Below are positions 1,745-60,207 of a DNA stretch of 64,000 bases, piece after piece; the stretch's first letter is position 1, and each line of letters starts with the position of its first letter. The notes beneath the pieces are model-generated. The model saw nothing but the letters and a program-made list of their open reading frames with translations. It was not told where the DNA came from and did not search any database. The DNA is from Mangrovibacillus cuniculi (GTDB lineage: Bacteria; Bacillota; Bacilli; Bacillales; R1DC41), in the NCBI RefSeq assembly GCF_015482585.1, contig NZ_CP049742.1, positions 888,501 to 952,500 on the forward strand, written 5' to 3'. A program made the position numbers and the translations under genes.

Positions 1745-1759
1745 GATGTTAGCTGAATA

Positions 1760-2444
<685 letters not shown>

Positions 2445-3901: not shown

Positions 3902-3904
3902 AAA

Positions 3905-4024
3905 ACTCTTTAAAGATGTCCAGAGAGGCGTCAAAGGGGATGGTTATAGGAATGAAGGACTCTGCATGCCTTCTTCCCCTATACCTAGCGAAAACCCTTT
4001 GACAACTGGTCAAAGGGTTTTTTA
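3905..4024 (+). promoter_or_regulatory. PyrR attenuator 3 (pyrP-pyrB)
   Basis: The binding loop (ATGTCCAGAGAGGCGTCAAAGG, key bases TCCAGAGAGGC at 3919-3929) is followed by an internal segment and a strong terminator. Its perfect arms AAAACCCTTTGAC (3991-4003) and GTCAAAGGGTTTT (4009-4021) end in a T run. The sequence GTCAAAGGGG in the loop can compete for the terminator arm. It controls pyrB and the eight genes after it. Confidence 0.87.
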
Positions 4025-4050
4025 TGTGAACGATGACAACGAGTATCCTT
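4022..4050 (+). repeat. Possible collapsed family C remnant
   Basis: Directly after the attenuator T run, the sequence begins TTATGTGAACGATGACAAC and then reads GAGTATCCTT. It resembles the two ends of the family C repeat (TTACGTGA...GTAACAAC and GAGTATCCTT) with the long central hairpin missing. The match is short and may be chance. Confidence 0.3.
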
Positions 4051-24468: not shown

Positions 24469-24485
24469 TGACGGTTATTTTTATT

Positions 24486-24535
24486 GTTACGTGACCTGAA
24501 ACAACTCATTGGCTTGAGCTTAGATGAGTCTCCTT
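24486..24535 (+). repeat. Family C repeat, short copy C1
   Basis: It begins GTTACGTGACCTG and ends GATGAGTCTCCTT. The outer arms ACTCAT and ATGAGT are kept, but the central hairpin is shortened relative to the copies at 43831 and 52858. It follows a T-rich stretch after priA. Confidence 0.65.
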
Positions 24536-43708: not shown

Positions 43709-43830
43709 TGGTGTCTAGCTCCAGGTGCGCAGATGCTAGGCAAAGTCGGCTGGCCCTGTGAAGGTTGAAGAACTACCTCCTCGGTCCATCCAACTTTTCT
43801 GCCGCGGCTGAACGCGTGCCTTGCGCTTTT
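43709..43830 (+). repeat. Family B repeat, copy B1
   Basis: It starts TGGTGTCTAGCTCCAGGTGC and ends GCGTGCCTTGCGCTTTT, 122 bp. The central arms AAAGTCGGCTGG and CCATCCAACTTT form a hairpin with two mismatches. I saw no coding content. Confidence 0.8.
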
Positions 43831-43897
43831 GTTACGTGATCGGTAACAACTCAGTGTTGACGACGTGATGTCGTCCGTTCTTAACTGAGTATCCTTA
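43831..43897 (+). repeat. Family C repeat, copy C2
   Basis: GTTAC-7 nt-GTAAC forms hairpin 1. Hairpin 2 has outer arms ACTCAGT/ACTGAGT and inner arms GACGAC/GTCGTC around the loop GTGAT, with unpaired GTT and CGTTCTTA between. It is placed between two family B copies. Confidence 0.8.
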
Positions 43898-43902
43898 CCA
43901 AA

Positions 43903-44024
43903 TGGTGTCTAGCTCCAGGTGCGCAACCGCTCGGAAAAGTCCGAAAGCCCTCCGTTGGCTGAAGAGCTGCCTACTCGGTCTTCCGAACTTTTCTGCCGCG
44001 GCTGAACGCGCGCCTTGCGCTTTT
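43903..44024 (+). repeat. Family B repeat, copy B2
   Basis: It begins and ends as in B1 and is 122 bp long. Central arms GGAAAAGTCCGAAAG and CTTCCGAACTTTTC pair with two mismatches; several differences from B1 occur on both sides of the stem. It ends 14 bp before the acpP ribosome site, so the acpP leader lies next to it. Confidence 0.8.
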
Positions 44025-52804: not shown

Positions 52805-52857
52805 CAAGAGGTTGTCCATAAAGTCATCTTTACATGACTTCTTGGGCAACCTTTTTT
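52805..52857 (+). terminator. Terminator of rpsP-khpA
   Basis: AGGTTGTCC and GGGCAACCT outer arms enclose AAGTCAT/ATGACTT and are followed by T6. Family C copy C3 begins on the very next base. Confidence 0.85.
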
Positions 52858-52923
52858 GTTACGTGACTAGTAACAACTCATCGTTAGCCACGTGATGTGG
52901 CTTGCTCTTAGATGAGTCTCCTT
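52858..52923 (+). repeat. Family C repeat, copy C3
   Basis: GTTAC-7 nt-GTAAC, then outer arms ACTCATC/GATGAGT and inner arms AGCCAC/GTGGCT around the loop GTGAT, with unpaired GTT and TGCTCTTA. Compared with C2, both stems differ at several positions in a paired way. In 52924-53139 I see no further gene or clear element, apart from a TACAAT at 53103-53108 that may be a -10 for ylqD. Confidence 0.8.
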
Positions 52924-53139
52924 ATTATAAATTTTTAGCATTCTTTGACCTAACTAGTTACGTATTAGGCACCATGTTAAAAAAAGGTGCTTAAGAATTC
53001 GTACTAGAGGAGTGAATAAAGGTCCTTAAAACACTTGAGGAAGTCAAAGTGGTATCTAGAATAGATTTAAGCTCCCTATAGTTTGAGAATCGCTAAATGG
53101 TGTACAATAAAAGAAACGTCACATATTAGGTGAATGATT

Positions 53140-54824: not shown

Positions 54825-55261
<437 letters not shown>

Positions 55262-60042: not shown

Positions 60043-60141
60043 TGATGTCTAGCTCCAGATGCGCAGAAGACAGTACCTCACGTACAAGCCCTCGGTCCCT
60101 CCAAGTTTGCTACCGAATCTAAACGCGCGCCTTACGCTTTT
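60043..60141 (+). repeat. Family B copy B3 (shorter, degenerate), nested in A2
   Basis: TGATGTCTAGCTCCAGATGC to CGCGCGCCTTACGCTTTT, 99 bp. The central hairpin is degraded compared with B1 and B2. Confidence 0.75.
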
Positions 60142-60207
60142 GTTACGTGAACAGTAACAACTCAGTGTTGACGACGTGATGTCGTCCGTCTTTAACTGAG
60201 TATCCTT
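60142..60207 (+). repeat. Family C copy C4, nested in A2
   Basis: It has the same layout as C2, with GTTAC/GTAAC, ACTCAGT/ACTGAGT-type outer arms and GACGAC/GTCGTC inner arms around GTGAT. It directly follows the TTTT end of B3, as C2 follows B1. Confidence 0.8.

Follow-up and report, generated by a model that had tools for sequence, protein, structure and literature searches.

What kind of element is the structured repeat at positions 52858–52923 of the 64,000-nucleotide stretch of the Mangrovibacillus cuniculi genome analysed here (the window), and what keeps its stems paired while their bases change? A sequence-only reading of the window had listed three copies of this repeat, named family C, with a two-hairpin layout and changes on both sides of the stems, and had taken them for a functional or self-copying RNA or single-stranded DNA (ssDNA) hairpin. 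All three copies were found where that reading had placed them, on the plus strand and each extended by two stem bases (Table 1), and the stem changes that it described are seen in them. Hairpin 1 has the layout TTGTTAC-GTGANNN-GTAACAA and lies 5′ of hairpin 2, which in copy 2 reads ACTCATC / GTT / AGCCAC-GTGAT-GTGGCT / TGCTCTTA / GATGAGT and is followed by CTCCTT. The element begins with TTGTTAC at its 5′ end and finishes with TCCTT at its 3′ end.

Table 1. Family C copies and adjoining features, in window coordinates.
Feature	Position	Strand	Remarks
Family C copy 2 (main element)	52856-52923	+	96.0 bits to covariance model R1
Copy 2, hairpin 1	52856-52876
Copy 2, outer stem	52877-52882 with 52911-52916		paired segments
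Copy 2, inner hairpin	52886-52902
Copy 2, 3′ tail	up to 52923
RF01690 match to copy 2	52858-52927	-	34.2 bits (cut-off 35)
Intrinsic terminator (hairpin and T-tract)	52806-52857	+	copy 2 directly 3′, sharing the last two T
Family C copy 1	43829-43896	+	93.8 bits to R1; RF01690 33.2 bits on - strand
Family C copy 3	60140-60207	+	92.4 bits to R1
Fourth family C copy (degenerate, internal deletion)	24484-24535	+	45.0 bits to R1
Family A repeat (TGTCTAGCTCCAGG...GCGCGCCTTGCGCTTTT)	43712-43830	+	directly 5′ of copy 1; boundaries by eye
Family A repeat	43906-44024
Family A repeat	60046-60141	+	directly 5′ of copy 3; boundaries by eye

Family C is a structured repeat that is present in many copies in the M. 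cuniculi genome (3.15 Mb). Covariance model R1, which was built from 58 copies, gave at least 143 matches at E≤0.001 when at most the best 150 of 1238 candidates were scored, and at least 133 of these reached 45 bits. Three further matches, with scores of 57.6, 39.7 and 39.0 bits, lay outside this main list. Hairpin 1 alone, used as a pattern, matched the genome exactly 66 times, and its reversed control did not match at all. In the alignment of 58 distinct copies (A1), standard pairs occupied 95.7% of the pair cells, and 97 cells carried two-sided changes, compared with 30.4 ± 7.5 after column shuffling (0 of 500 shuffles as high) and with only 4–24 in a control in which the pairing partners were slid. 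A1 comprises 58 of 68 first-round copies, taken without a fixed selection rule; among the ten left out were copies duplicated over the 68 bases, copies with truncations or gaps, and a few of other kinds. The same excess was observed in 114 distinct rows from 100 loci of the genome (214 two-sided cells vs 67.2 ± 7.3; 15 of 19 pairs) and in 25 copies from M. cuniculi, Bacillus and Halalkalibacter (alignment A4; 100 vs 28.1 ± 4.1; 14 of 19 pairs), although both alignments were fitted to the model and therefore lean towards structure, and the shuffles ignore relatedness. A4 consists of rows at E≤1e-5 and replaced a 34-row set (A3) with at least one spurious row. The three outer base pairs that vary exist in eleven distinct versions with full complementarity, which together account for 69 of 104 copies. 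The pairing-preserving changes reported from the window are thus part of strong covariation in all three helices, and the genome-wide alignments gave significant covariation in the shuffle tests among copies that are not all near-identical.

The sequence-only reading did not recognise the family and supposed that it might be known under another name. This was borne out: family C is homologous to Bacillaceae-1 RNA (Rfam RF01690), read on the opposite strand. At the gathering threshold, Rfam gave no match for the repeat in the whole window, and RF01690 came to light through a relaxed search and through relatives of the element; copy 3 had no listed RF01690 match at E≤5 in the relaxed search of the window. 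Ordinary regulatory RNAs were also identified by Rfam among window positions 1758-1878, 3903-4027 and 54854-54897, namely two PyrR binding sites and an L19 leader. Several other M. cuniculi copies exceed the RF01690 gathering cut-off of 35, with 49.2, 44.5 and 38.5 bits, and at least 13 matches at E≤0.001 were obtained from the best 16 candidates scored in the genome. The cmscan alignment places the RF01690 helices, two hairpins and an internal loop, in the window copy, and in a joint alignment with Bacillus and Halalkalibacter copies all three helices covary. Family C and Bacillaceae-1 RNA share two hairpins, of which the larger has an internal loop, an AAGGA end, aligned CUAAG and AACG segments, dispersal in Bacillales and the occurrence of tandem copies. 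However, the UCCU terminal loops of the RF01690 consensus are not found in family C, which has UCAC in their place (GTGA on the element strand), so it is a divergent relative and not a typical RF01690 member. It further differs in hairpin 1, which often has a 7-base loop and an A/T-rich stem, in having at least 143 matches in one genome, and in its start at terminator T-tracts in one orientation. Family C is a relative of the Bacillaceae-1 motif, a subfamily that is specific to this lineage and has expanded in it.

Bacillaceae-1 is classed as an RNA (Y) that is probably not cis-regulatory (n) in the table of Weinberg et al. 2010 (PMC2864571). In 2014 its function was listed as unknown, and its discoverers were described as unsure of the strand (PMC4333381). 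For B. subtilis, eight Bacillaceae-1 structures are recorded in BSGatlas (PMC8208703), and a 2022 paper in Gene, according to its entry among the references of PMC10440787, divides the family into two classes. The passages on Bacillaceae-1 in these sources and in PMC9029176 describe neither a link to terminators nor mobility.

R1 matched only M. cuniculi and Halalkalibacter nanhaiisediminis among 397 genomes of the order. A pattern scan of named genomes picked out an element of identical layout in Bacillus changyiensis, B. haynesii and B. paralicheniformis; pattern-scan stretches in Bacteriovoracaceae and Chryseobacterium (2/6) look like chance. Model R2, made from M. cuniculi copies together with relatives, matched 16 of 44 genomes from the genus of B. 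paralicheniformis, and all 12 R2 loci given to Rfam carry RF01690 on the opposite strand. When 299 genomes were sampled from the order, RF01690 itself had a match in 147, and in 146 of these the match exceeded the cut-off; the counts per genome are lower bounds, as about 16 of the best candidates were scored in each. Eight of the 12 Bacillus loci adjoin a 5S gene, in the 23S-5S spacer where a 23S gene is in reach, and in all eight (L205, L206, L208, L209, L218, L221, L222 and L230) RF01690 lies on the rRNA strand. The two classes of the 2022 Gene paper are reportedly an rrn-linked and an intergenic one, with expression from either strand. The family is thus already known, and the M. cuniculi genome holds a divergent, expanded lineage of it. 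What is new here is the terminator-linked placement, the GTGA loops and the absence of a G·T preference in the resident copies.

The placement of family C is sharply defined. Of the 133 copies with at least 45 bits, 113 begin, in a single orientation, at the T-tract of an intrinsic terminator, defined as a hairpin of ≤ -8 kcal/mol with at least 5 T in the last eight bases before the element. The same test was positive in 4 of 198 control segments, taken 5′ of the first 100 copies at distances of 150 and 300 bases. The proportion was similar across score classes (61/73, 33/39 and 19/21) and was 4/10 for weaker copies. Of the 20 exceptions without a scored terminator, 14 follow the hairpin and CTTTT end of a family A repeat, as judged by eye, and window copies 1 and 3 are exceptions of this kind. 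An upstream open reading frame (ORF) lies on the element's strand for 100 of the 113 copies with an ORF in reach (20 copies have none), and the element lies a median of 49 bases from the stop codon. In five pairs the two copies show no more than one difference over 68 bases, and in four of these pairs the partners stand behind different terminators. The partners of the identical pair, at 948640 and 1021409 of the host genome (G000:C1), also have their downstream flank in common; the pair may therefore represent one longer composite that was duplicated. Family C also forms clusters or tandem arrays, at L165 1954-2252, L162 58-201 and L171 1011-1223, in which hairpin 1 has other stems (TGCCCAC, TGGTCGC, TTGTCGC); here too the copy that comes first is preceded by a terminator-like hairpin (by eye). 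Most copies (121 of 133) also point along the fitted direction of the replication fork, but so do 219 of 266 ORFs (p 0.024), and since these data had also served to fit the origin and the terminus, nothing was drawn from this bias. Positions 1-420 of the host contig are nearly identical to ~381920-382300, which is either a duplication or an assembly-end artefact.

Outside M. cuniculi the picture is different. In 79 comparison copies from 60 stretches of 12 other genomes, picked among the listed top RF01690 matches, a terminator lay 5′ of the element in one case and on its other side likewise in one. Copies of the motif in these genomes mostly have flanks in common, being parts of longer repeats (by eye). 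The terminator link is thus a property of the M. cuniculi lineage.

Family A repeats (TGTCTAGCTCC...GCGCTTTT) occupy three places in the window. The one directly before copy 1 is hairpin-forming with a short T tail and ends GCGCTTTT, and the one directly before copy 3 ends ACGCTTTT. Some family A copies (G000:C1 334202 and 2025279) hold an inner Bacillaceae-1-like element of CTTGTAC type on the other strand, and the copy at window 60046-60141 has a partial one. Because family A holds such inner elements, the two families seem to be building blocks of a single mosaic system.

Strong covariation is what a working RNA would show, and among the alternatives to a mobile element a host-encoded functional RNA, acting as a CsrA-binding sponge or as a 3′-end element beside terminators, survives best, although we consider it unlikely. 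The decay of the resident copies bears on it directly. A C-to-T or A-to-G change within a pair yields G·T when read on one strand and A·C when read on the other. Selection on the RNA of either strand should produce an imbalance between G·T and A·C, since G·T is tolerable and A·C harmful. In 114 distinct rows of 115, from 100 loci, the departures from Watson-Crick pairing were divided evenly between G·T (41) and A·C (39; p 0.91); the test counts cells and not independent events, and any bias of the search model would be towards G·T. Among 203 non-Watson-Crick cells, 57 were G·T, which is close to the ~27% that the observed 108 transitions and 90 transversions would predict. Rare bases had mean frequencies of 0.023–0.062 in all structural classes, with a fairly even distribution between paired and unpaired columns; transitions and rare bases were counted in 103 distinct of the 104 copies (from 133) that are exactly 68 nt long. 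As a rough yardstick, the terminator stems of 117 copies contained 170 G·T and 2 A·C, with energy folding favouring G·T. With no G·T preference on either strand, the single copies thus show no trace of selection at the level of RNA. The strand that would be transcribed also differs, as the Rfam strand is the rRNA strand in the eight 5S-adjoining Bacillus rrn loci (8/8; 12 loci scanned), whereas in M. cuniculi the opposite strand runs with the upstream ORF (100/113). In addition, most family C elements start after a T-tract, where most transcripts are expected to end. After insertion, therefore, copies seem to decay without constraint, whereas the fold is retained by the lineages; this is the pattern of a mobile element.

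One feature of the canonical copies in other genomes favours an RNA. On the element strand, 56 of 58 rows of such copies retain one particular G·T pair of hairpin 1, which could reflect an RNA role or a protein contact in hairpin 1 and suggests that the family C strand, opposite to that of Rfam, is the structured one. The ratio of 63 G·T to 2 A·C in the alignment of comparison copies (A5) was not used as a test, because its rows were chosen for high scores and 57 of the 63 G·T belong to one near-fixed pair.

The loops address the sponge version of this alternative. CsrA sites have been proposed for the reverse complement of Bacillaceae-1, that is, the family C strand, in the part of PMC4333381 that treats the motif, and CsrA is present in 17 of 17 genomes checked. 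In M. cuniculi, however, GTGA opens the loop of hairpin 1 in 101 of 115 rows, the loop of hairpin 2 is GTGAT, GTGAA or GTGAC in 97 of 115, and GGA is absent from both loops in all 115 aligned rows despite two csrA genes. (The two csrA matches, at G000:C1 2219138-2221112, lie ~1.7 kb apart on opposite strands.) In the 12 other genomes, by comparison, hairpin 2 has the loop A[CG]GA[CT] in 78 of 78 copies and hairpin 1 has A[CG]GAN in 77 of 78; these copies are top RF01690 matches, which favours canonical loops and intact pairing, and A5 lacks one of the 79 comparison copies, which scored 22.5 bits. The CTTGTAC-type subfamily shows the same switch, with GTGAG or GTGAC accompanied by GTGAT in two full M. 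cuniculi copies (those at 334202 and 2025279), and AGGAT with AGGAC in two copies of the comparison genome G163. As the loop change is common to both hairpins and to separate subfamilies, it points to a trans-acting reader of the loops, and since CsrA occurs in all 17 genomes yet GGA has been lost in M. cuniculi, this reader is not CsrA in any simple way. The structured, covarying and probably self-copying hairpin of the sequence-only reading is supported, whereas a functional RNA at every site is not.

Terminator placement could also reflect tolerance only, with elements landing at any T-run and surviving where they do no harm. Sites behind terminators are safe, and insertions inside genes would be selected against. 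However, the junction lies exactly at the T-tract and is not scattered across intergenic space, and a hairpin was found at 113 of 117 T-rich junctions compared with 18 of 44 intergenic runs of T5 or longer in the window (Fisher p 2e-14; the T criteria of the two sets differ slightly), so that the hairpin counts and not the T-run alone. We therefore regard tolerance as quite improbable. That the two-sided changes arose by mutation, with template switching at small palindromes perfecting the stems without selection, is more improbable still: A4 does hold 2 one-sided against 100 two-sided cells (8 of the 100 being U-A to G-U) and loops of 5–7 bases would suit such a process, but covariation extends to the outer stem, with its ~28 enclosed bases, single-sided breaks remain in many copies, and loops and internal-loop bases (GTT, TTA) kept across genera are left unexplained.

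The reading that we prefer, with a probability of about 0.62, is that family C is a very short non-autonomous mobile element, REP-like in its working but not a REP. During copying, a single strand would fold into two hairpins with similar loops, and an enzyme acting in trans would copy the element. A trans-acting protein would read the loops and insert the element 3′ of a hairpin with a T-tract, that is, a terminator. Selection on pairing would act on the source copies at the moment of copying, which would yield covariation between lineages and leave inserted copies free to decay. A wider proposal is put forward tentatively, as it is rather less likely than not to hold in full: Bacillaceae-1 RNAs may altogether be ssDNA-hairpin mobile elements, with a lineage-specific loop-reading protein that co-evolves with the loops of all subfamilies, and with harmless homing to terminators in M. 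cuniculi.

Regarding the enzyme, the M. cuniculi genome contains one Y1_Tnp match, for which the best family is the REP-associated NF047646 (60.8 bits, cut-off 80). This single Y1 (RAYT-like) gene is a candidate only. No family C copy lies beside it, the nearest listed match being more than 30 kb away, and Y1_Tnp had no match in Bacillus haynesii and B. paralicheniformis, though elements are present there. An origin from RAYT was rejected, as the Y1_Tnp searches and the scanned flanks of seven loci gave no linkage. The lone gene (ORF at G000:C1 2436168-2436755, - strand) has in its vicinity a tandem repeat with about seven units, each ~85 bp long (by eye), the two together spanning L086 1234-2490 (G000:C1 ~2436168-2437424). 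The units contain GCGCTTTTGT, resembling a family A end joined to a family C start. Plasmids, phages and viral contigs gave no match to M. cuniculi-type queries, the viral scan consisting of one exact pattern. Reverse transcriptase (PF00078, RVT_1) had no match in the M. cuniculi genome, which argues against a retro-mechanism.

Group IIC introns are terminator-homing retroelements. Family C resembles them in standing just 3′ of a terminator hairpin in a fixed orientation, but its 66–68 bases have neither the length nor the ends of an intron, and it is found in a genome without a PF00078 match. No terminal inverted repeats, as in MITEs, were seen at the family C ends. REP elements and their RAYT transposases form GTAG and CGTC super-families and are described in PMC3733652, in the portion concerned with these repeats, as short, palindromic, high-copy repeats that lie mostly 3′ of genes and have family-specific stems. 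These properties are shared by family C, but it consists of two unlike hairpins in direct order, has no unpaired GTAG or CGTC tag of the kind given there at its ends, and has no copy adjoining the RAYT-like gene. By its table description, Bhal-1 of Bacillus halodurans (74 bp, 36 copies, intergenic type, conserved structure; PMC2267715) is also similar.

With more than 100 copies, changed loops and a sharp insertion site, M. cuniculi offers a handle on RF01690: an RNA can be told from mobile DNA by each of three features, namely the junction with the terminator, the switch of the loops and the count of G·T against A·C. If the mobile reading is true, many RF01690 annotations in Bacillales would be remnants of transposable elements, and the rule of terminator targeting would be an unusual integration specificity.
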